Origin: Actinomycetota bacterium
Lineage (GTDB): Bacteria; Actinomycetota; Actinomycetes; Nanopelagicales; Nanopelagicaceae
Assembly: GCA_947451045.1 (NCBI GenBank)
Contig: CANFXM010000008.1
Location: forward strand, 1 to 38,676
Length of the DNA stretch: 38,676 bases
Direction: 5' to 3'
The position numbers and the translations under genes were made by a program. Under the pieces are notes generated by a model, which worked only from the letters and a program-made list of their open reading frames with translations, ran no database searches and was not told where the DNA came from. Below, one piece after another: positions 3,553 through 23,282 of this stretch (position 1 is the first letter of the stretch; each line of letters opens with the position of its first letter).

Positions 3553-4887
3553 TTATTTCTTTGTGTAGCCCTTAGGGCAACTTGGCTTTACCGCAGTAAC
3601 GTTCAGGGTTGTTTTACCTTTGACGCACGTAATAGTTACTCTCTTAGCAACCGAATTAGTTGATGCTTTTGTTGTAGCTTTCTTACTTGGCGCAGTGCTT
3701 GGTTTCTTACTTGGCGCAGTGCTTGGTTTCTTACTTGGCGCAGTGCTTGGTTTCTTACTTGGCGCAATTGTTGAACACGTGACCACTGATTTCGCACCCT
3801 TTTTTGCTGATGGCTCAGTTACACATTTGACACTTGGTTTAGTCCCAGTGGATCCCTTTGGATACGTTGTAATACATGTGACTACGCCTTTTCTACCTTT
3901 TGTTACTGGTTTAGCTGTCGTACAAACAACGCTTGGCTTAACAGATGGTGAGGCACTATCACTTGCAATCACAGCACTAGGTGAAGGTGATGGAGATTTG
4001 CTGGCAGTAGGCGATGGTGCAGGTGACCCACTTTTACTTGGACTAGCCGAAGGAGATGCCGATGCTGTTGCAGTATCTTCGGCGCCACCAAATCCGCCTC
4101 CCCCTCCTCCAAATCCCCCGCCACCACTTCCAGATGTTGAGGAAGAAGATGGTGACGCCGTTGGAGTTGCAGTTGGTGACGCCGTTGGAGTTGCAGTTGG
4201 TGAAGCGCCACCGTCGTCAGCACTTGTAATAGTTACTTCATCAGATGCTGTTGAAACGCTACCTGTCGTACTTATTGCAGTGAGGGCCGTGACAGTAAAG
4301 ATAGCGCCTACCCCTTGATCTAAACCAGTGAATTCAATTGTCGATGCACTACTTGTTGCAGAGATGCTCTTTCCACTATTAGTTTCCGTGATGACATAGG
4401 AAGTAATTGAGGAGCCACCATTTTCATTTCCTACTAACGCTGTCCAATTTACTGTTGCAGATCCAACACTTGGAATCGCAGTTGGCTTATCCACTTGTTT
4501 CGGAAGTGTTGTTGGCGTTGCAGTTAGGGATGCTGAAGACCAATCACTAAAATTTACATTTTCAATCGTGCGCACTTGAACAACATAAGTAACCCCACCA
4601 AGGAGACCAGAAATGACTGCTTGGGTATTTTTCTTTCCACTCACGGCTGCTGTTGAGATTGTTGAAGTACCGGCGCGAGTTGCGATTACGGCATACGCAG
4701 TTGCGCTCTCTACTTCATCCCATGTAATGGTCAGGCTGGCATTGAGGTAAGGGGCATTGGTACTAGTTCTAACGACAACATTTGTGGGCACACCAAGGGC
4801 TGCCGAGTAACTCAATTGCGGTATCGCTAATTGCAATCCAAAAAGGGCAAGTGATAGCGCTAATAAAAGCTGAAGAAATTTTTTCAT
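3553..4887 (-). CDS. Secreted FN3-domain protein with low-complexity linker and three C-x15-C modules
   Basis: 444 residues with a signal peptide (1-29, LSYSA end). Two fibronectin-III-like domains follow (about 32-126 and 131-222). A Thr/Ser/Pro/Gly-rich linker (about 223-318) includes TPTASPTA repeats and a poly-Gly patch. The basic C-terminus has six cysteines (322, 338, 355, 371, 421, 437) arranged as three pairs, each with exactly 15 residues between. Four KKPSTAPS-like repeats lie between pairs 2 and 3. The last pair is in a tail of the form ITCVKGK ... KPSCPKGYTKK. I recall similar Cys/Lys tails on other secreted proteins of freshwater actinobacteria, so it may be a surface-retention element; that is inference. 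Start ATG 4887 overlaps the stop of the giant upstream gene (ATGA), implying coupled translation and joint function at the cell surface. No sortase or lipobox motif is visible. Confidence 0.8.
   Translation of the reverse strand: MKKFLQLLLALSLALFGLQLAIPQLSYSAALGVPTNVVVRTSTNAPYLNASLTITWDEVESATAYAVIATRAGTSTISTAAVSGKKNTQAVISGLLGGVTYVVQVRTIENVNFSDWSSASLTATPTTLPKQVDKPTAIPSVGSATVNWTALVGNENGGSSITSYVITETNSGKSISATSSASTIEFTGLDQGVGAIFTVTALTAISTTGSVSTASDEVTITSADDGGASPTATPTASPTATPTASPSSSSTSGSGGGGFGGGGGGFGGAEDTATASASPSASPSKSGSPAPSPTASKSPSPSPSAVIASDSASPSVKPSVVCTTAKPVTKGRKGVVTCITTYPKGSTGTKPSVKCVTEPSAKKGAKSVVTCSTIAPSKKPSTAPSKKPSTAPSKKPSTAPSKKATTKASTNSVAKRVTITCVKGKTTLNVTAVKPSCPKGYTKK
3679..3766. repeat. 24-bp tandem repeat, about 3.6 copies
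   Basis: Near-perfect units begin at 3681, 3705, 3729 and 3753, all starting TCTTACTTGGCGCA on the plus strand; the last is partial. The unit is in frame, so each copy adds eight residues (KKPSTAPS) to the FN3 protein. Copy number can change by slippage without breaking the frame. Confidence 0.9.
4151..4198. repeat. 24-bp tandem repeat, two identical copies
   Basis: Two identical 24-base units (each GGTGACGCC ... GCAGTT on the plus strand) encode TPTASPTA in the Ser/Thr/Pro linker of the FN3 protein. It is a second, unrelated in-frame repeat of the same unit length in the same gene, and would change linker length by eight residues per copy. Confidence 0.85.
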
Positions 4888-7800
4888 TTTCCTACGGGGG
4901 CGGTAAGTGTAATTGTCTTACCTGTATAGGATCCAGAGGCAGCAACTATTGTTGTGGATCCTGTCGTCGGGGTGGCAATAAATGGGTTAACTGCATTGAG
5001 CGTCCAAGAAACGGAAGTATCTAAATATAATTCATACGTGCCGTCAGTTCCAGATACGGTACTGACTTTTGTTTTTCCATCCGATGAAGTAGCTGTTATT
5101 GGAATATTTGCTAATAACTCACTGGTTGAGGAGATCACTGTTCCTGTGACATTCCCGGCACCCATGGTTATTCGGCCAACATCAGAAGTAAATGTTGCAC
5201 CTGTAGATACGGTTACGTGTCCACCGGAGACAGTGAAATAGATAGTCTTTTCAACGCCCTTTGATTTTCCTGGATACAGAATCATCTTGTAAGTGTTATC
5301 GCTTAGGTAAACCGCCCCACGGCCTTGATCATTGAGGTAACCATCGGCGGCATATGTGTATGAATCACCTGAGCCTTGCTGAATTTCAAACCAGCCCCAC
5401 GCATTGCCAGTTCCCTCACGGTCATAAACAACAAAAGTCACATTCGGTGATTGGAAAGTAATCGTTATTTCCGCATCGGTTGTTGCATTGAATGATGCAA
5501 TTTCGTAAGCCTTCGGTGAATATCGACCGTAATACTGACCAGATGGATATGCCGTGATTCGATACTTATGACCTGTTTCAAGTCCCAACCCTGCTTGGCC
5601 GAGTTCGTTAGTGCCATATCCGCTTTCACTAATCACATTTCCGCTGCCATCGAGTTCTTGAACAGAGAGCCATGACCATTTATCTGGCAATCCAACGCCA
5701 CCATTTGTTGGAATTCGCACTGTTACTTTTGAATTTACAACGCCTAATGCTACAGAGCCGATATCCCCAACCACCGTGAAAGAGTCTGAGACCGGCGTAA
5801 ACGCGGAACCGTAACCAGGGTAAAGGTTCAAGCGACAAGTTGTTCCACATGTCACCACGGTTGAAGTATCAATATAAGCGCTTAGATAACCGTTGCTATC
5901 CGTACTTCCACCAAAATATTGATCTCCATAATTTCCATTTACCCAGACATCAGATAGCCCGGTACTTGAATTCAAGGGCGAAACAACACGAACTCTAAAA
6001 TTTGGTTCTTTCATTCGAATTGTTAGAGTTCCCGCTGCTACTCCACCTATGACTGTGACTCTATATTTTCCTGAACTTGTGGAGCCTCCACCCGTTTTAC
6101 CCCATGAGCGAGCGACAATGTCATACGTTCCATCAGGAATAGACATTGCAAACTGTCCAAGCTGGTTTGAGTTCGTAGAATATTCCCAAAGTTCTTCACC
6201 AGCCCTATCGCCACCGACGGCAATTGGTATTACTTGGGCCCATTGAACTGCGGTTGCACTTGTTCCCGACTGCAAAACCGAACCGGAAATAGCTGGACTT
6301 GTGAAAGCAAATGAATACTGGCCTGCTACTGCCGTAACTGTCTCATTTCTGTTCAAATTTCGCACCGAAGTAATGACGCCCGATGACACCGTTATGGAGA
6401 ATCGAGTCTGGGTGTAACTTGCTTGTGAAAGTCCACCTGGATAAACGACTAGTTCAAAATTTCCATCTTCAAGATATGTTGAAAAAGAGCCGTCATAACT
6501 ATTGAGACCTTGGCCCCATTTGTAATTTTTGCCAGAAATTGCATCATCAGATACTTGATACACACTTGCATAACTATCGGTAACTGGCAGACCTGTTGGA
6601 GTGGTTATGCGGCCAACTAAATTACCTTTTCGTAGACTTACATCGCAGACAACTGATGTTGCAGTCTCAGATAGTGTGCAGTCATATCGTTTAGTTTGAA
6701 CAAAGCCACCACTTGAATAACCCTTATTTGTATACGGATAGACATCCACCGTATACGTACCTGGCGCTACATTGAAAGCAAATTTTCCACCATTGATCCA
6801 ACGATTCGCAATCCAGTTGTATCCATAACCATTTTCTTGAAGAATACTTACACTTGCTCCATAATCAATACGAACGCCATCTTCAAAAATCGTACCCGAG
6901 AGATTTGAAACAGGTAACTGGACAACGTAATAACCATCCCCATCAACCGTTAGTGCTTGACCCTTTGAATTGGTCATAGAAGTTACCGTGCCAGTCTCGT
7001 CAACTATAATTCTGACTTGCGTACTGGCCTCATTGCCTGATCCCCATATTTGAACATCGGCATTCCACGTTCCTGTGCCGAGAGAAGCTTTCGCTTGACC
7101 AATTGAATTTACATTTGACCAGTCCCAAGTCTTTGTTGGAACTGTGTTGGTAAATTTATCCCATTGATAATTGAAATTGATATTGGCAAATGTATAAGCA
7201 GTTCCACCCTCGCCAAGTAACTTAATCTTGGTGTTATAAGAGGCTAAAGTAATATTACAAACAATGACAGTTGCGGTATCAGTGACTACGCAAGGTCCGC
7301 CTGCAGGGGTCAATCCACCAACTGTTCTTCCGCCGCCAGCATTAGCTTCATCTGCTTCTGCTTGGAACTTATAAGTCCCTGGGTCCAAGTAAAAGGCAAA
7401 CTTTCCTTCACTATTTGTTGTACGAGGCGAAGCTAATTGATCCGAACCACCGTATTTTCCATATCCGTAATCTTGGAGCACTTGGACAAAATTACCTGGG
7501 GATACTCCGGAAGGTCCGCTAACGATCCCGATAACCGTTGGTGTGCGAAGTTTCAAAATAAGACCCGATGCGCCAGTTCCGTTTGTAACAGTTACAGAAG
7601 TTTTAGTCGAATCTGCCTTCGTCATATCGTTTTGTGGTGCTTGTGCCCAAACATCATAAGTACCGTCGTGATTCAAAATTCCTGCAAATGCCCCTGAATC
7701 ATCAGTGTTGTAATAGTTCCATTCTGGGCCAGAAGTTCTCACTCCTGTGTTTGGAATTGGAGTTGTTCCATCTTGTGCAACAACGGTTCCTGCAACGTTG

Positions 7801-10800
7801 GGTGCTTGTAATTTGAATGCATAAACACCATTTGCATCTGCAGTGACCGCAATTCCTGTTATGTAATCCTTCACGGATTGAATAGCTCCGTCCAATATTT
7901 CAACTTTATAGCTGCGAGAAACACCGTGACGATTTGAACCATCTGTTGGTTGCACTGTGACTAAATAATAAGCATCCAAACCATCGAATACACGCAATGG
8001 CGTTTTATAAAGTCCACCTGGTTGCTGATTAATTCCATAACCTTGACTCCAATTTCGTGTTCGAAGTTCAATTTGTGCACCAACATTTTCATAGAGGTCC
8101 GCTCCAGAAGTACTTTGAATTTTGAAGATGAAATTATCAGCTGGGTGATCAATGTTGCACGTTGAGTTTCCTGATCCAACGGTGCAGCTAGTCATTACTC
8201 CCGCTTTACCATCTTCGCGAGTAGTCATCACATAACTACCAGCAGCAACTTTTACTGCATAACTTCCTCGCGAAGTAGAAGCAGTTCGATAATTTGTCCA
8301 TTGCTGGGTAGCAGAATTGAAAAATCCATTGATATAAATGTATCTATCTGTAGCCGCTACACCTGCGACACTGAATGTTCCTGAAAGGTTTGGAGTACCA
8401 AGATTGACCGTATAAACCCCGCCTGAAGCGCTAAGTGATCCAGCATCTTCATCAATAACAGAAGTAACGGTTCCCGATTCAACTTTGACAAGTATGGCTG
8501 CCGCAATTGCCGGTGGAGTTAGATTTCCACTTGGGTTTACATAGAATCTATATTCACCATCTCGTAACAAAGTTGAAGCGATACCTAAACCATTAGCGTT
8601 GAAGTTGTACCAATTCCACTTACCGGCTGTTGGATATCCATAGACATATGAATTTGAATTAATAGCTCCGTTAGCTTTCACCAAGAGATTGAGATTTGGG
8701 GCAGCTAATCGAATTCCTGAAAGAGCTGTAACAGTATCTATTACTTGTAAGGTGTCATTGTCCGTAAAGGAAGATACCGTTCCTGAATCAACACTGAATG
8801 AAAATTCGCGACTTACTCCATCACGATCAGGAGAATATGAGCGAATTGAAAGCGTGTAATCTCCATCCACGAGTGACGGAGTGAATTGACCAGACTCATT
8901 TGCATTGAGACTGAAACCAAAATTCCAGCCAGGAAATGACTGACCTTTATTGAAGCTCCTATTTATGGAAGCAGCGACACCGCTTGTAAGTTTTGTGCCG
9001 GTTTTATCTAAAACTGCAAAAGAAAGATTGGTGTTCGGGAATGCAATATCGCAAGTCGTCGAGACTCCTGCCGTAGCCGTGCAATTTTTCACCCCGCCTA
9101 CTCCGCCACTAGGCACAAACATCACGTCATAATTTCCAGCTGGCATCATTAGCGCGTACTTACCTAAGGAATCAATACCACTTGAAGCAAAATCAACCTG
9201 TTTATTCAAGACCGTATTCCAAATACTATGGATATAGCCCGTTGTTGCGACTCCATCGACGCTCATCGTGCCAATAATGTTTGGAACTTCGAACTCCAAA
9301 ACATATTTGCCAGCAGCATTTACAGTGAGTGTTTCTCCACTTGCCTTGCTAACTGATACAACAGTCGAGCTTTCAACCAAAACAGAATAAGTAGCCGATA
9401 CAACTGTAGGAGACTCATTTCCGGTTGGATTAATAGTCAAGTAATTGAGCCCATTGGGTAAATCCATACCGATTAGACCTTCAGAAGTTGAGTAAGTACT
9501 TGCTCGGCTAATCTCCCCACCCTTTGGATCTAGTTGACGGGCATACGTATAAACATTCGGATCTGGGTTTGAATTTGCCTGTGCCACTGCCGCAAAGTTT
9601 GGCCTTCCGAGAGCAAGTGGAACTATTCCGCCTACAGCGGCAATTACATTTCCTTTGACTTTATCAATGACGCGACTAGCGGTACCTCCGGTAACGGAGA
9701 ATGAATATGTGCGTCTTTGACCGTCTACCGAGGCGTTGTTAGAGCTTACGCTCACTTCGTAATCGCCATCTTGAAGGGCAACTGAAAAATCTCCACCATT
9801 CCAATTACTGAAGTAGTTGGTTTGAGGATAAGTACCTAACCGACGAAATTCCACATTTTCATAATCTGTGATCTTTGCACCATTTATGTCATTGACCGTA
9901 AAGGAAAAATTGTTCGCAGGAGCAGTTGCGTTGCATGTTGTTGTGCCAGCTGCCGTCACTAGGCAATCTGTCGTAATGCTTGGACCATAAAAATTCGAAT
10001 AATATGGAACGAATGAAAGCAAGTACGAGCCTTCGGAAAGTGCAATACCATACTTACCATCCCAATTGGGTCCATTTGAATATATATTGACTCCATTTCC
10101 CGAAGTCTTATCCAATATTTGGTTGATGTAACCATATTTTGAAACCCCACCAAGACTCAATAATCCTTGCACATTTGCCACTTTCAATGGCAAGACATAG
10201 GTGCCGCTTTGAACCGTAATTGTTTCACCAAGCGTATTAGCAACTGAAGTCACAACGCCTGTGGCAACGGTTACCGTGTAGCGGGCAGTCACAAAATCTG
10301 TTGCGTTCGAATAGACATCTATATCTGTAGTTCCATTGAATAATCTTGTAGAAAGTTCACCATTTGCATCTCTATTCATACATGAGCTGTTGCCACTGGT
10401 TCTGTTGTAAACGCAAACACCTCCTGAACTCGATGTCGAAGATCCGCCCATAACACGAATTTTGAAGTTATCTCCAGGGATTGGCAGCAAATATCTTGGA
10501 CCAGAAAGCGAAACCGATTCACCCGTAGTAATGGAGGTAAGTGCAGTTACTACTCCCCCGGCGATTGTCATTGAATAAGAAGCATCGCTTTGCCCGGTCC
10601 AATACCTATTCATATCCTTATGAATATTTACTCGATACTTACCATTTTGTAATGAAACTGTTTCGGAATCTGTTCTACTCAGCACAGATTGATAATCAAG
10701 ATACTTACCATCAATTGTTCTGTTTATCGAAATACCCAAGCCAGTTAAATTGACTAACGCGCTTAGCGTTTCCCCGCTCGAGCCAACCACCTGGAAAGGA

Positions 10801-11888
10801 AAATTATTCGCAGGGACTGAAATATCGCAACTCGCAACCGATCCAGTTGAAACAACACAATCACCAGAAAGAGCATAAAATTTCTGATATATACCCTCTA
10901 CTTGAATTCTATAAGTGCCTGCATCAAGAGCCAATGAGGAACTTTTATCACTCAAACTTGTTAGTTCAATTTTCTTTTCAACACCATTTGGTGCACTGAT
11001 TCGCAATATATTGAAATCTTTTTTTACTCCATCTATTGTCGACGTCACGTTCAACCCTGTAGTTCCAAGTGTTATTTGATATGCGCCACCCACCGGAGCT
11101 GAGGCGATTGGAAAAACCGCCACGACACCAGAACTAATTCGGAAGGTAAATACTGATGATGGAACTCGAGCAGTAGATTCCTCCACCTTTGGATAAACTC
11201 TCACATCGTAAGTTCCATCTTCCATTGCTAAACGTAGGTCATCGTTTGCATCAGTTATAAATTGATGCACTGCCCAAGAATTATTTGGGAAATCTTTTGG
11301 ATTGGTTAGAACGAACTGAACGCTATGAGCGCCTAATGATGAACCATTTGCAATATGGAGTTTGAAATTAGGTTCGCGAACTGTAATGGTCCAAGTCAGC
11401 GATGACGATGCTAGAGATCCTGAACCATTCTTTAGGGTTGGAACTATTCGAAAAACGTAAGTTCCTGCATAATCTAAATTTGGAACACTAAGTTGTAAAA
11501 CGGCATATATTTTCACTTGCGCTGATTCAGATATTGATATATCTATAGAATTATTCTCGCCTGGTTGCGCAGTTTGTACATTATATGATTTTGATTTCAG
11601 CAGAGATATTTTTGCTGCTTTTGAGTGTCCTGTTGGATACGAAACAGGTACAACGCTCACACTTATAGTGTCATTTTCTGACGTACTTGCAAAGGCTGAC
11701 GTAACAATTGCAGTTGCAGTCTCATCAATATCAACTAGATCTGAAGCTGAATCTATAGATAAAGAATCAGCAAAGATTGTGGCACTCGCTGGAGAGATCG
11801 AGAAAAGGCACAAAGGGACAATCAACACCGCAAGGATAATTTGAACTATCCGGTGGCGTATCTCTGCATAGCGCTCCTGAAAGGCCAT
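4884..11888 (-). CDS. Giant modular secreted surface protein (2334 residues)
   Basis: The N-terminus is a long signal peptide (basic MAFQERYAEIRHR, hydrophobic to about 34, ending SPASA). The rest is repeated beta-rich modules resembling carboxypeptidase-regulatory/Ig-like sandwiches. Each has an element like DGDY-x-hydrophobic-x-V-x-P and one like V-x-x-GxVTSV followed by a Gly-rich turn and Y-x-L. Modules are grouped in a larger period: cysteines at 354, 652, 946, 1244 and 1544, each closing a C-x8-10-C pair and followed by an NNFxF-like strand start, lie 294-300 residues apart. A sixth pair closes at 1748. No enzyme motif, LPxTG, lipobox or C-terminal membrane anchor is visible; the protein ends at PVGK. 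It is first in an operon with the FN3 protein (ATGA overlap). An adhesive, stalk-like or S-layer-like role is an inference. The start is supported by a 10-like TAGGGT six bases upstream; a Shine-Dalgarno is lacking. Confidence 0.85.
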   Translation of the reverse strand: MAFQERYAEIRHRIVQIILAVLIVPLCLFSISPASATIFADSLSIDSASDLVDIDETATAIVTSAFASTSENDTISVSVVPVSYPTGHSKAAKISLLKSKSYNVQTAQPGENNSIDISISESAQVKIYAVLQLSVPNLDYAGTYVFRIVPTLKNGSGSLASSSLTWTITVREPNFKLHIANGSSLGAHSVQFVLTNPKDFPNNSWAVHQFITDANDDLRLAMEDGTYDVRVYPKVEESTARVPSSVFTFRISSGVVAVFPIASAPVGGAYQITLGTTGLNVTSTIDGVKKDFNILRISAPNGVEKKIELTSLSDKSSSLALDAGTYRIQVEGIYQKFYALSGDCVVSTGSVASCDISVPANNFPFQVVGSSGETLSALVNLTGLGISINRTIDGKYLDYQSVLSRTDSETVSLQNGKYRVNIHKDMNRYWTGQSDASYSMTIAGGVVTALTSITTGESVSLSGPRYLLPIPGDNFKIRVMGGSSTSSSGGVCVYNRTSGNSSCMNRDANGELSTRLFNGTTDIDVYSNATDFVTARYTVTVATGVVTSVANTLGETITVQSGTYVLPLKVANVQGLLSLGGVSKYGYINQILDKTSGNGVNIYSNGPNWDGKYGIALSEGSYLLSFVPYYSNFYGPSITTDCLVTAAGTTTCNATAPANNFSFTVNDINGAKITDYENVEFRRLGTYPQTNYFSNWNGGDFSVALQDGDYEVSVSSNNASVDGQRRTYSFSVTGGTASRVIDKVKGNVIAAVGGIVPLALGRPNFAAVAQANSNPDPNVYTYARQLDPKGGEISRASTYSTSEGLIGMDLPNGLNYLTINPTGNESPTVVSATYSVLVESSTVVSVSKASGETLTVNAAGKYVLEFEVPNIIGTMSVDGVATTGYIHSIWNTVLNKQVDFASSGIDSLGKYALMMPAGNYDVMFVPSGGVGGVKNCTATAGVSTTCDIAFPNTNLSFAVLDKTGTKLTSGVAASINRSFNKGQSFPGWNFGFSLNANESGQFTPSLVDGDYTLSIRSYSPDRDGVSREFSFSVDSGTVSSFTDNDTLQVIDTVTALSGIRLAAPNLNLLVKANGAINSNSYVYGYPTAGKWNWYNFNANGLGIASTLLRDGEYRFYVNPSGNLTPPAIAAAILVKVESGTVTSVIDEDAGSLSASGGVYTVNLGTPNLSGTFSVAGVAATDRYIYINGFFNSATQQWTNYRTASTSRGSYAVKVAAGSYVMTTREDGKAGVMTSCTVGSGNSTCNIDHPADNFIFKIQSTSGADLYENVGAQIELRTRNWSQGYGINQQPGGLYKTPLRVFDGLDAYYLVTVQPTDGSNRHGVSRSYKVEILDGAIQSVKDYITGIAVTADANGVYAFKLQAPNVAGTVVAQDGTTPIPNTGVRTSGPEWNYYNTDDSGAFAGILNHDGTYDVWAQAPQNDMTKADSTKTSVTVTNGTGASGLILKLRTPTVIGIVSGPSGVSPGNFVQVLQDYGYGKYGGSDQLASPRTTNSEGKFAFYLDPGTYKFQAEADEANAGGGRTVGGLTPAGGPCVVTDTATVIVCNITLASYNTKIKLLGEGGTAYTFANINFNYQWDKFTNTVPTKTWDWSNVNSIGQAKASLGTGTWNADVQIWGSGNEASTQVRIIVDETGTVTSMTNSKGQALTVDGDGYYVVQLPVSNLSGTIFEDGVRIDYGASVSILQENGYGYNWIANRWINGGKFAFNVAPGTYTVDVYPYTNKGYSSGGFVQTKRYDCTLSETATSVVCDVSLRKGNLVGRITTPTGLPVTDSYASVYQVSDDAISGKNYKWGQGLNSYDGSFSTYLEDGNFELVVYPGGLSQASYTQTRFSITVSSGVITSVRNLNRNETVTAVAGQYSFAFTSPAISGSVLQSGTSATAVQWAQVIPIAVGGDRAGEELWEYSTNSNQLGQFAMSIPDGTYDIVARSWGKTGGGSTSSGKYRVTVIGGVAAGTLTIRMKEPNFRVRVVSPLNSSTGLSDVWVNGNYGDQYFGGSTDSNGYLSAYIDTSTVVTCGTTCRLNLYPGYGSAFTPVSDSFTVVGDIGSVALGVVNSKVTVRIPTNGGVGLPDKWSWLSVQELDGSGNVISESGYGTNELGQAGLGLETGHKYRITAYPSGQYYGRYSPKAYEIASFNATTDAEITITFQSPNVTFVVYDREGTGNAWGWFEIQQGSGDSYTYAADGYLNDQGRGAVYLSDNTYKMILYPGKSKGVEKTIYFTVSGGHVTVSTGATFTSDVGRITMGAGNVTGTVISSTSELLANIPITATSSDGKTKVSTVSGTDGTYELYLDTSVSWTLNAVNPFIATPTTGSTTIVAASGSYTGKTITLTAPVGK

Positions 11889-11989: not shown

Positions 11990-13441
11990 TTACTGCACTA
12001 ATAGTGACATGAAATCTTCTACTGGAGTCGCCTCAAGTTTTGGGCGATCCAGGCAGAGATCCAAAATCTTCTTTTGTTGATCTGCTGGGAAAATTCTCGC
12101 TAAGTTGATTTTGAATTTCTCAATCAGCAATGGGATTCCCTCAACGCGACGGCGTGCATGGCCGATTGGATATTCAACAACTTCTTCACCAAATACAGTG
12201 CCATCTGTGCAGGTGATTGTTATGGCATTAGCAATAGAGCGCTTTGATGGGTCGTGATAGTCAACTGTAAATGCAGGATCTTCAACACAGACAATCTTTT
12301 CGCGGAGTGCATCGATGCGTGGGTCTGCAGCGATTTCGTCTTCGTAATCACGAGCTGTTAGGCGACCAAAAATAAGTGGGACAGCAACCATGTATTGAAT
12401 GCAGTGATCGCGATCTGCTGGATTTCCCAGTGGGCCCTTCTTGTCGATGATTCGAATACAGGCCTCGTGCGTGCGAATCGTTACCTTGGCAATGTCAGAT
12501 TCTGACTTGCCTGCAGCTTTGAGTTGAGCAAAAAGAGTCATTGCGGCCTCTACTGCGGTTTGTGAGTGGAACTCTGCCGGGAAAGAGATCTTGAAGAGAA
12601 TGTTTTCCATAACGTATGAACCGTATGCACGTTGGAATTCAAAATGTTTTCCGCGGAAAAGCGAATCGTAGAAGCCCCAAATCTTTGCGGTGAGCGCACT
12701 TGGATAACCCATTTCGCCAAGGCGTGCCATAAGTGCAAGTCGCACTGCGCGAGATGTTGCATCCCCTGCTGCCCACGATTTACGCGAACCAGCATTTGGG
12801 AAATGGCGATATGTGCGAAGTGCTTGACCATCGACCCATGCAAGTGAGACTGCGTTGAGAGTTTGTTCGCGAGTAAGGCCCATCATCTGTGAAACAACTG
12901 CAGTGGATGCAACTTTGACCAAGATAACGTGATCAAGACCTACTTTGTTAAATGAATTCTCAAGTGCAATACAGCCTTGAATTTCATGCGCTTTGATCAT
13001 GGCGGTGAGAACATCGCGCATAACAAGTTTTTTACCGCTACCAAATTCAGGGTTTTGCGCTATCCAATCTGCCGTTGCAAGAATTGCGCCGAGATTATCG
13101 GATGGGTGTCCCCATTCAGCGGCCAGCCATGTGTCATTGAAATCTAACCAGCGAATCATTGCGCCGATATTGAAGGCGCCCTGCACTGGATCTAATCGAT
13201 ATTTCGTTCCTGGAACGCGAACGCCTTTATCTACAACAATGCTTGGAACAAGTGGTCCCATTAGTTTTGTACAAGCATCATATTCAAGGGCTTCAAGGCC
13301 ACAGCCGATAGTGTCCATCAAGCAATTCCATGCAGTCACATATGCAACATCTGAATTGATTTGATAATTCAGTGCGTAATCGACGATATCGATAATTTCT
13401 TTATCGAATTCTTGTGCTGGTCTTGAGATATGTGATGACAC
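11990..13441 (-). CDS. prpD: 2-methylcitrate dehydratase PrpD
   Basis: 483 residues, the full length of the PrpD branch of the MmgE/PrpD family. It dehydrates 2-methylcitrate to 2-methyl-cis-aconitate in the cytoplasmic methylcitrate cycle for propionyl-CoA. Signature segments are clear: LDPVQGAFNIGAMIRWLDF, GHPSDNLGAILA, KAHEIQGCIALENSFNKVG, YRHFPNAGSRKSWAAGDA, and FPAEFHSQTAVEAAMTLF. These agree closely with my memory of enterobacterial PrpD along the whole length, so this is the true PrpD, not a distant MmgE. The start is GTG at 13441 (VSSHIS read as MSSHIS); the N-terminus aligns with known PrpD from there. It is last in the operon, 22 nt after prpC. No iron-sulfur ligands are expected in this family. 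Confidence 0.95.
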   Translation of the reverse strand: MSSHISRPAQEFDKEIIDIVDYALNYQINSDVAYVTAWNCLMDTIGCGLEALEYDACTKLMGPLVPSIVVDKGVRVPGTKYRLDPVQGAFNIGAMIRWLDFNDTWLAAEWGHPSDNLGAILATADWIAQNPEFGSGKKLVMRDVLTAMIKAHEIQGCIALENSFNKVGLDHVILVKVASTAVVSQMMGLTREQTLNAVSLAWVDGQALRTYRHFPNAGSRKSWAAGDATSRAVRLALMARLGEMGYPSALTAKIWGFYDSLFRGKHFEFQRAYGSYVMENILFKISFPAEFHSQTAVEAAMTLFAQLKAAGKSESDIAKVTIRTHEACIRIIDKKGPLGNPADRDHCIQYMVAVPLIFGRLTARDYEDEIAADPRIDALREKIVCVEDPAFTVDYHDPSKRSIANAITITCTDGTVFGEEVVEYPIGHARRRVEGIPLLIEKFKINLARIFPADQQKKILDLCLDRPKLEATPVEDFMSLLVQ

Positions 13442-13463
13442 GAAGCTATACCTTTTCTTGTAG

Positions 13464-14600
13464 TTATCGGATTGAAATAGGAACGAACGCTAAATCTTCT
13501 GGACCGGTGTAATTGGCACTGGGGCGAATAATCTTGTTATCGATGCGTTGTTCAATAACGTGAGCTGACCATCCAGTGGTGCGGGCAATTACAAATATTG
13601 GGGTAAAGAATGCCGTTGGAATCCCCATTTGCTTATAGGCAACTGCTGAGAACCAATCCAGATTTGGGAACATATTTTTGACATCCCACATCACAGATTC
13701 AATTCGCTCGGCAATCTCGTACAAAGCGGTTGATCCTTGATCAACTGATAAATCGTATGCAATCTTTTTGATAATTACATTACGAGGATCTGAGACTGTA
13801 TAGACAGGGTGACCAAAACCAATGACAACTTCTTTGTTAGCAACGCGTTCACGGATATCGGCATCTGCTTGATCTGGATTTGAATAACGCTGTTGAATTT
13901 CAAGGGCTACTTCATTGGCTCCGCCATGTTTTGGGCCGCGTAGTGCACCGATTGCACCGGTGATTGCAGAAAATAAATCTGATCCTGTTCCGGCAATAAC
14001 CCTGCCAGTAAAAGTGGAGGCGTTGAATTCGTGTTCTGCGTAGAGAATAAGTGAGGCGTGCATGGACTTGACCCAGAGATCACTTGCTGGTTTGCCATGC
14101 AATAAATGAAGGAAATGTCCGCCAATGGAATCGTCATCTGTTTCAACAGTGATTCGCTTGGCACCATTGGCAAAGTGATACCAATAAAGAAGCATTGAAG
14201 GCAGGCAGGCGATGAGTTTGTCTGCAATATCGCGCGCACCCTCTATTGAATGAAATTCGTTTTCTGGCGTTACGCAACCAAGTGCTGAGACACCAGAGCG
14301 CATGACATCCATTGGATGAGCAGTTGCTGGAATTTGTTCCAAAATTGCTTTTACTTGCGGCGGAAGGGAACGAAGTCCTTGTAATTTCTTTTTATAGGCC
14401 GCTAGTTGAGAAGTAGTTGGCAAAGTGTCATGAATTAGAAGGTGTGCAACTTCTTCGAATTCACACTGAGCTGCAAGGTCTGCAATATCAAAGCCTCGGT
14501 AATGCAAATCGTTTCCACTTTTGCCCACGCTACATAGAGCTGTATTGCCTGCTGTAACTCCTGAGAGTGCAACTGATTTTTTTGGCTTGAACTCTGCCAT
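13464..14600 (-). CDS. prpC: 2-methylcitrate synthase (citrate synthase family)
   Basis: 378 residues, the size of short bacterial citrate/2-methylcitrate synthases. It condenses propionyl-CoA with oxaloacetate to 2-methylcitrate. Catalytic residues are visible: His225 ([10 protein letters not shown]), His264 (GFGHPVY) and Asp315 (NLDWFSAV). The substrate-binding [12 protein letters not shown] segment lies near 341-352. The start ATG 14600 has AAGGAG overlapping the TAA stop of prpB (TAAGGAG), so translation of the two genes is linked. Citrate synthase and methylcitrate synthase cannot be separated reliably by eye; the assignment rests on its place between prpB and prpD and on the short length. 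Dual use of acetyl-CoA and propionyl-CoA is possible. Confidence 0.93.
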
Positions 14601-14614
14601 GGGAGAAATGCTCC

Positions 14615-15496
14615 TTATTTTTCTTCGCGATATTGATCGAGCGCTTTTTCAAATGCGTGATAATTGATGCGCTCGTATAACTCGTCACGACTTTGCATTG
14701 AGTCAATAAGGCCAGATTGTGTCCCATCGCGGCGAATAGTTTCGTAGACATTTTCTGCCGCTTTATTCATTGCTCTAAATGCTGAAAGGGGATACAAAAT
14801 CATTCCCACGCTATTGGCTGCTAACTGATCACGTGTATAGAGTGGGGTTAGGCCAAACTCAGTGATGTTGGCGAGGATTGGTTTCTTGACTGCTTGAGCA
14901 AATTTTTTATAATCACTGAGTTCGGTTATTGCCTCTGGGAAAACTAAATCAGCACCTGCAGATATATAGGCAAGGGCTCTATCGATTGCGCTATCAATAC
15001 CTTCATTTGCAATGGCATCGGTGCGCGCCATGATTTGAAAAGACTCATCAGTTCGAGCATCTACTGCTGCTTTGATTCGGTCAACCATTTCGCCCTTGCT
15101 AACAATCTCTTTATTGGGACGGTGTCCGCAGCGTTTAGCACCGACCTGATCTTCAATGTGCATGGCTGCTGCGCCAGCTTTGATCAAATCTTTTACCGTG
15201 CGGCCAATATTGAATGCAGATGGTCCAAAGCCAGTGTCAGCATCTACTAATAGAGGTGTATCGCACACATTCGTAATGCGTCGAACGTCAACTAAAACAT
15301 CTTCCAAAGTTGTAATACCTAAATCAGGAACTCCGAGAGAACCTGCTGCGACTCCCCCGCCAGATAAATAGATTGCTTTGTAACCTGCGCGCTTGGCAAG
15401 GAGTGCGTGATTAGCATTGATTGTGCCGACAATTTGCAATGGTTTTTCTTCGGCAAGGGCTTTTACAAAACGTGCACCAGCTGAAAGCGTGGTCAT
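14615..15496 (-). CDS. prpB: 2-methylisocitrate lyase
   Basis: 293 residues, standard for PrpB. It splits 2-methylisocitrate to pyruvate and succinate, closing the methylcitrate cycle. It belongs to the isocitrate lyase/PEP mutase barrel superfamily: the substrate loop [16 protein letters not shown] (45-60), the metal-binding aspartates in [10 protein letters not shown] (Asp85, Asp87), and the catalytic KRCGHR motif at 121-126 with Cys123. MARTDA at about 157 and FPEA are also typical. The start ATG 15496 lies 9 nt after the E1 gene stop. The aconitase that isomerises the intermediate is not in this window. Confidence 0.95.
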
Positions 15497-22499: not shown

Positions 22500-23282
22500 T
22501 CACGTGTCGCAGGCAATCCCATTTTTGTCACGATCTAATCCTGCATTTATTTCATAGAGTCCTGGATTCGTTGCTCGTCGAATAGGTGCAACACCTGCTG
22601 CCTTTGCCGCGGCGCAATTCGCAAATTTGAAAACAGCTTTGCCAGTTGGAGTTGGACTCTTTTTAGCGGTGACTTTCGTATTAAAAACAACGGTTACTGC
22701 AGAGCTCTTACATTCTTTTACTTTTGCACTTAGTACCAAAGCTTCTGCGCTGTCAACGGTTAATTGATAACGAGACTTAATTGATATCCAATCGGAAATA
22801 TATGTACATACTCCTTTGGGAGGTAGCCATTCTGCTGGATCTTGATCACCCTTGCTTCTATTTTCTCCTAGTGATACCGCCACCAGTGTTCGTGGATTGC
22901 TGAGGTCGTTTGCATACGCTCCGCGTTTAGCCGGAGTCCATGCCCACGCACCTGATTTCCATGCTTCCGAAAGTGGAACAACATGATCAATATCTAATGC
23001 TGAAGCTTTTGTAACTTTTACTCCATCGTAGGGACTAATCCACGTTCCACCGGTAAGCACACAATTCTTACCAATTGTTGGTTTAACAATTGCTTCTTGA
23101 ATCAAAACTTCAGCGCGGGTGTTACAACCATTTGAGTCAGCATCTATCCAAAGTTTGAACAGTGCTCTTTCGTATCCACCAACGTGGTCTGTTGCAATAG
23201 CTAGTTGATAGGTATCTCCGTGAGATGTGGGCACCGATAGCGCAAGGAAGATCGAGATAAGTGAGACCAACTTTTTCGACAT
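22500..23282 (-). CDS. Secreted HNH endonuclease with C-terminal Excalibur calcium-binding domain
   Basis: 260 residues. Signal peptide about 1-22 (MSKKLVSLISIFLAL ... SHG). The central HNH domain is of the DUF1524/GmrSD-C type: ALDIDHVVPLSEAWKSGA with Asp97, Asp99 and His100, then NDLSNPRTLVAVSL (Asn129) and ENRSKGDQDPAEWLP (Asn141, Lys144). Cysteines at 53/74 and 159/191 could form disulfides outside the cell. A short Lys/Pro linker leads to an Excalibur domain (about 218-259: FANCAAAKAAG ... LDRDKNGIACD) with the calcium loop DRDKNG. The expected activity is nonspecific DNA or RNA cleavage outside the cell, for nutrient scavenging or defence. It is divergent from the GH3 gene; start ATG 23282. 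Confidence 0.9.
   Translation of the reverse strand: MSKKLVSLISIFLALSVPTSHGDTYQLAIATDHVGGYERALFKLWIDADSNGCNTRAEVLIQEAIVKPTIGKNCVLTGGTWISPYDGVKVTKASALDIDHVVPLSEAWKSGAWAWTPAKRGAYANDLSNPRTLVAVSLGENRSKGDQDPAEWLPPKGVCTYISDWISIKSRYQLTVDSAEALVLSAKVKECKSSAVTVVFNTKVTAKKSPTPTGKAVFKFANCAAAKAAGVAPIRRATNPGLYEINAGLDRDKNGIACDT

Follow-up and report, generated by a model that had tools for sequence, protein, structure and literature searches.

What is the giant repetitive protein encoded near one end of contig CANFXM010000008.1, from an Actinomycetota bacterium of the family Nanopelagicaceae (assembly GCA_947451045.1), and how would the cell use it? We analyzed positions 1 to 38,676 of this contig (the window), in which an open reading frame (ORF) at 4884-11888 on the minus strand predicts a protein of 2334 residues, next to a gene for a smaller protein with fn3 domains, hereafter the partner. 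A first-pass annotation had described a period of about 298 residues marked by cysteine pairs and had proposed an extended surface stalk, which our analysis finds plausible. The answer that we favour, and regard as rather probable, is a Sec-secreted rod that arose by an old duplication of a three-domain block (a, b and c), with a cysteine staple in the c domain, its C-terminus at the cell and a hypervariable N-terminal tip facing outward. In the open-licence literature we found no account of a protein of this kind from these bacteria. Relatives are referred to by genome number, G000 being the window genome.

The giant protein is predicted to comprise about 22 small transthyretin-like beta-sandwich domains and a variable N-terminal domain. 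Its parts follow one another as signal peptide, N-terminal domain, domains b0 and c0, four a-b-c units (residues 357-1546), a two-domain unit (to residue 1752) and then some six more domains, which end at residue 2334:

11778..11888, minus strand: Sec-type signal peptide, residues 1-37 (RHR, hydrophobic core, SPASA), read from the sequence; 81-86% amino acid identity in G003 and G005.
11373..11777, minus strand: N-terminal domain, residues 38-172, hypervariable, with near-saturated synonymous divergence.
11064..11372, minus strand: domain b0, residues 173-275, variable (profile scan, with a model built partly from the window sequence).
10821..11063, minus strand: domain c0, residues 276-356, with Cys pair 344/354 at 10827-10859 (cysteine positions, profile scan).
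9927..10820, minus strand: unit u1 (a1, b1, c1), residues 357-654, with Cys pair 642/652 in c1 at 9933-9965 (self-alignment, profiles).
10380-10415, minus strand: extra Cys pair 492/503 of u1, in b1.
9045..9926, minus strand: unit u2 (a2, b2, c2), residues 655-948, with Cys pair 936/946 at 9051-9083 (self-alignment, profiles, AlphaFold2 model).
8151..9044, minus strand: unit u3 (a3, b3, c3), residues 949-1246, with Cys pair 1235/1244 at 8157-8186 (self-alignment, profiles).
7251..8150, minus strand: unit u4 (a4, b4, c4), residues 1247-1546, a remote copy (a4 strong, b4 and c4 weak), with Cys pair 1533/1544 at 7257-7292.
6633..7250, minus strand: two-domain unit d5-c5, residues 1547-1752, with Cys pair 1737/1748 at 6645-6680 (cysteines, profiles).
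4887..6632, minus strand: C-terminal block of about six transthyretin-like domains, residues 1753-2334, with Cys 2014/2018 at 5835-5849 (Pfam, beta-only model).
3553..4887, minus strand: partner gene, 444 residues, with signal peptide, fn3 domains, a Ser/Pro/Gly-rich region, Lys-rich repeats and a 33-residue C-terminal tail with two cysteines (ORF, Pfam fn3).

Is the period real? We compared the protein with itself by diagonal scoring and Smith-Waterman alignment (a BLASTP self-comparison gave no off-diagonal matches). The strongest smoothed diagonal lay at offsets of 295-301 and scored 244, whereas the best of 20 shuffles reached 21; the next offsets were about 595, 493, 100 and 207. The supermodule of roughly 300 residues that had been proposed is thus real, as judged from this dominant diagonal and from the alignment of the units. 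Unit alignment and profiles divided each block of about 298 residues into three transthyretin-like domains, each of about 80-115 residues, consistent with the three beta-rich blocks per period described before; an AlphaFold2 model of residues 652-962 (20-row alignment) was nearly all beta, with a mean predicted local distance difference test score (pLDDT) of 89.3. The claim of at least four duplications was generous: three copies, u1, u2 and u3, are faithful (26-32% identity, with Smith-Waterman scores of 180-333 against shuffle maxima of 69-84), but in the remote copy u4 only a4 fits well, b4 and c4 scoring 8 and 10 bits in the profile scan, and in the tree the unit groups with those of one other species' protein. 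Profile scores for the window's own units are circular, the models having been built from them, which leaves other proteins as the only test; in P0003, a protein left out of model building, the three profiles recurred in the order a, b, c.

The domains appear, by prediction only, to be transthyretin-like (CarboxypepD_reg/prealbumin-like) beta-sandwiches. The whole protein matched the Pfam family CarboxypepD_reg (PF13620) with 35.3 bits, above the gathering cut-off of 32.3, in five stretches, among them the last domain (residues 2247-2317); NOMO_5th was matched as well, and relatives of the protein scored 72-148 bits to CarboxypepD_reg. Unit u2 on its own had no CarboxypepD_reg match, and NCBIfam had no family for either the giant or the partner protein. 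The model of domain c aligned with the transthyretin-like domains of carboxypeptidases D and N (Z score 9.7, root-mean-square deviation 2.2-2.4, 79-81 residues), carboxypeptidase D domain II being its top match (Z 9.7, 81 residues), that of domain b with transthyretin (Z 7.5-8.0) and the pilus adhesin RrgA (Z 9.1), and that of domain a with domains of FbaB and Cpa (Z about 8). A Z score near 8 is weak evidence taken singly, and it is the Pfam match together with the concordant structural matches that supports the fold class. The top whole-chain ranks in Foldseek were the stacked-domain pilins and adhesins TIE, BcpA and SpaC. The C-terminal 790 residues gave a beta-only model of lower confidence (pLDDT 75.9). 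A CnaB-type isopeptide (Lys-Asn/Asp plus a catalytic acid) was also sought: 20 unit copies from five proteins contained no invariant lysine or acidic residue, the invariant columns being C, N, G, G, G, G, C, C and N. An origin from a phage tail fibre found no support, with no match in the phage collection.

The cysteines of the giant protein lie at residues 27, 344, 354, 492, 503, 642, 652, 936, 946, 1235, 1244, 1533, 1544, 1737, 1748, 2014 and 2018. The six C-x8-10-C pairs reported before are exactly placed, with intervals of 298, 294, 298, 300 and 204 residues between their second cysteines; all six fall in c domains, and the short last interval arises because d5-c5 has two domains. C2014/C2018 had been overlooked, and so had a seventh pair (C492/C503, C-x10-C), which lies in a b domain at 149 residues from each of the two pairs beside it. 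When 17 cysteines were placed at random, gaps of 9-11 residues occurred 0.33 times on average and at most 4 times in any one of 20,000 trials, compared to the 7 observed; with seven random positions, four near-equal intervals turned up in a fraction of about 5e-5 of the trials. Across the 20 unit copies the c pair is invariant in both its cysteines, as is the asparagine that follows, and all pairs except 492/503, which is lost in G049, are conserved down to 46% identity. An NNFxF-like strand start, said to follow most pairs, is clear after four of the six (PANNFPF, PANNFSF, PNTNLSF, PADNFIF) but weak after the last two (SYNTKI, KGNLVG), and it is one version of the x-N-[FVLI] strand that opens nearly every domain, hence not specific to the cysteine pairs.

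The idea that one disulfide locks each unit was not supported, since the pair spans 9-11 residues inside domain c and domains a and b have no conserved pair. With cysteines so close, a bond could staple the end of domain c and not lock a block of 298 residues. In the AlphaFold2 model strand 281-287 contains C285, and C295 immediately precedes strand 297-299, an assignment that is consistent with a hairpin. Most likely, then, the c-domain pair would form a local disulfide that staples the last hairpin of the domain. Metal binding by the pairs was set aside, given two cysteines per site, no conserved histidine and a secreted protein.

How old is the array? The first-pass annotation had called the expansion old from its diverged DNA copies, and the relatives agree. 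In a tree, u1, u2, u3 and u4 each grouped by position across the window species, G005, G003 and G049 (bootstrap 93-100), which places the duplication of the blocks before those species split; u4 also fell with the units of G021. At the DNA level the units are 40-47% identical, and 31-35% at third positions. The window arrangement is kept in G005 and G003, and G049 keeps that of the units at 46-47% identity, without the N-terminal domain. Other relatives have periods of their own. The protein of G021 (L023, P0004; 3351 residues) has periods of 383, 678 and 1063 residues, and apparently consists of blocks of four and of seven domains, each block having two domains with a cysteine pair; the giant proteins of G009 and G172 have a period of 92 residues. 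Across species the length ranges from 1573 to 3351 residues. The gene lies between prpD and lexA in the window species, G005 and G003; in G049 the giant gene and lexA are on different contigs. Directly upstream of it in the window (11990-15496, minus strand) are methylcitrate-type genes (MmgE/PrpD, citrate synthase, PEP mutase/ICL family). The contig with the G003 copy is recorded as Bifidobacterium breve yet matches this freshwater genus, and that of G049 is recorded as Streptomycetaceae; both are likely mislabelled (L027, L028).

Which end would face outward? Distant relatives share mainly the last three domains, which are common to all relatives, and domain identity to G049 rises from N- to C-terminus (Spearman 0.71, p=2e-4). 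At the other end, the conserved signal peptide is followed by some 320 hypervariable residues, and the N-terminal domain is 30-45% identical between species whose shaft is 77-97% identical. Between G005 and G003, the proportions of synonymous (pS) and nonsynonymous (pN) differences were 0.69-0.86 and 0.10-0.46 at residues 40-400, compared to 0.07-0.36 and at most 0.04 at residues 760-1440; pS was 0.38-0.52 in the neighbouring prpB, prpC and prpD. The hypervariable tip extends over residues ~40-440 (window ~10569-11771), and synonymous divergence in it is near saturation between two species that are 84-97% identical in the shaft. High synonymous and protein divergence beside a conserved signal peptide likely reflects an exchange of divergent tip alleles, which would make the gene a mosaic.

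What holds the rod at the cell? The sortase family (PF04203) had no match in the window genome, an assembly of 73 contigs and 95.8% completeness, while the control search was positive in three genomes. The giant protein ends in TITLTAPVGK, without an LPxTG-type signal for sortase-dependent anchoring or polymerisation. With no sortase detected, anchoring must be of another kind, and the partner is the obvious candidate. In all nine loci that we examined across the genus, which represent more than one genomic site, a gene of fn3 type adjoins the giant gene: it lies downstream in the window, G003, G005, G049, G021, G043, G009 and G172, and upstream in G006. The two genes overlap by 1-4 bases in seven of the nine loci, and in the window the start of the partner ORF overlaps the giant stop. 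In G006 (L105, G006:C40) the giant gene and its fn3-type partner, in reversed order, overlap by four bases. The G005 partner is frameshifted after about 70 codons (L020:11787-13000), either a real break or an assembly error.

The tail of the partner, about 33 residues with two cysteines (ITCxKGKxxxxVTAVxPxCPxGYxKK; window 3556-3684, minus strand), is not confined to this protein. The motif recurs 11-12 times in the window genome (further copies are on G000 contigs C2, C12, C14, C27, C42, C44, C50, C62 and C66) and is present in 42 of 61 genomes of the genus, at the protein C-terminus wherever this could be checked (nine loci). Pfam has no model for it, and the more distant partners of G049, G009 and G172 lack it. 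The tail is a candidate that may act as a sortase-independent sorting or retention signal, and it may be a more novel lead than the giant protein itself. A bolder and decidedly tentative proposal is a two-gene surface-fibre cassette of sortase-less freshwater actinobacteria, in which a mosaic transthyretin-like rod, its shaft rebuilt through higher-order duplication of domains (three-, four- or one-domain periods, depending on the lineage) and its tip exchanged between lineages, would be held at the wall by the fn3 partner through this two-cysteine tail, in the window species and its nearest relatives, as its sorting signal. That the partner is instead unrelated to the giant protein and merely shares an operon with it is unlikely: the C-terminal tails of the partners do differ between lineages, and an interaction of the two products is putative, but nine giant genes at more than one site all have an adjacent fn3-type gene, mostly overlapping, and the pair stays together in G006 despite its reversed order.

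In the rod that we favour, the shaft would have grown long ago by duplication of the a-b-c block of about 298 residues. The conserved C-terminal domains would most likely hold it at the cell surface, perhaps via the co-encoded fn3 partner, and the N-terminal region would be the distal exposed tip, contacting a particle, another cell, a phage or a grazer. At about 4 nm per domain, a fully extended rod of about 22 domains would measure some 80-100 nm. The location at the surface, the polarity of the rod, its disulfides, binding of the partner and a role in adhesion or recognition are all what we infer from the predictions and comparisons above, and the present data do not separate adhesion, phage or grazer recognition and nutrient capture.

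Several observations weigh against this picture. Of the 135 genomes of the genus, the C-terminal profile picked out relatives in no more than 11, which makes the giant gene accessory. The N-to-C trend in identity is weaker against G005 (Spearman 0.40, p=0.07). Recombination is also seen in the shaft, where smaller divergence peaks at residues 1440-1560 and 1840-1920 make it a mosaic too. VKOR, a disulfide oxidase partner in many actinobacteria, was matched in only one of six genomes searched and not in that of the window, which leaves the oxidation of the cysteine pairs uncertain; since the genome has a DsbA-like Thioredoxin_4 gene, oxidation is still likely.

Could the protein serve another purpose? 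It might be a secreted or wall-bound scaffold that catches polysaccharides or other nutrients, its fn3 and transthyretin-like domains acting as carbohydrate-binding spacers. CarboxypepD_reg and fn3 domains often accompany carbohydrate-active enzymes, and the window contains a GH3-family glycosidase gene at a distance of about 11 kb; we nonetheless consider this a poor prospect, as Pfam and NCBIfam detected no catalytic or carbohydrate-binding module in the giant or the partner and a hypervariable tip is more typical of recognition or escape. A shade less probable again is a sheath, an S-layer-like coat subunit or a structural filament in place of a stalk presenting a tip. Structural matches include SlaB, a stalk protein of S-layers (Z 8.2, Foldseek rank 12), and the tip has no recognised ligand-binding domain, but a coat fits badly with the restriction to 11 genomes, with the range of lengths between species and with an N-terminal region far more divergent than the shaft. 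Already disfavoured, and very improbable, is a plain array in which 298 residues are merely three times a domain period of about 99: a weaker sub-period of 96-101 residues does underlie the longer one, and G009 and G172 show a simple one, but the offset-298 signal is about five times that at offset 100 (367 vs 70), only every third domain has the cysteine pair, and the profiles kept their a-b-c order in P0003.

As a rod, the giant protein probably belongs with the known giant repeat surface proteins and to a known style of bacterial surface stalk, having the long repetitive beta-domain shaft of the SiiE and Mobiluncus type. The giant Ig-like adhesin of Mobiluncus mulieris has a short-spaced disulfide, Cys6887-Cys6895, that joins adjacent strands of one sheet (PMC10619420). 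It too is an actinobacterial giant surface protein with a long run of beta-sandwich domains and a short-spaced disulfide, here proposed. However, it is far longer (7651 residues), and its Ig-like domains carry isopeptide and ester cross-links, in contrast to units without an invariant lysine or acidic residue. The CnaB/prealbumin-like stalks (TIE, BcpA, SpaC, RrgA, the B domains of SdrD) are the best structural matches and share the stacked transthyretin-/prealbumin-like rod; they are usually sortase-anchored or polymerised and isopeptide-stabilised, unlike a protein with no LPxTG-type end in a genome with no sortase match. CarboxypepD_reg (PF13620) and NOMO transthyretin-like domains represent the sequence family of the individual domains, but they are enzyme-associated or, in NOMO, lumenal, whereas here about 22 are arrayed in a three-domain repeat with a Cys pair in every third domain. 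The RTX/BIg giant adhesins (SiiE; RTX extenders, PMC7493085) follow the same design logic of a long repetitive beta-sandwich extender carrying a ligand-binding end, but are Gram-negative, calcium-stiffened and exported without a Sec signal, in contrast to the Sec-type signal peptide found here. What is new is the higher-order domain repeat, the lineage-specific periods, the gene pairing, the mosaic tip and the apparent lack of sortase.

Elsewhere in the window, a scan for promoters and terminators gave nothing above chance level, and positions 22500-23282 (minus strand) encode a secreted-nuclease-like protein with GmrSD_C and Excalibur calcium-binding domains.

If the rod is real, streamlined freshwater actinobacteria maintain, at considerable cost, a long fibre on their surface whose tip changes fast, and this fibre would be a concrete candidate for interactions with phages, grazers or particles. 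The lineage-specific repeat periods point to a stalk whose length and make-up have been rebuilt by block duplication, and the shared C-terminal tail raises the question of how proteins are attached to the wall in bacteria that lack sortase, which can be put to the test.

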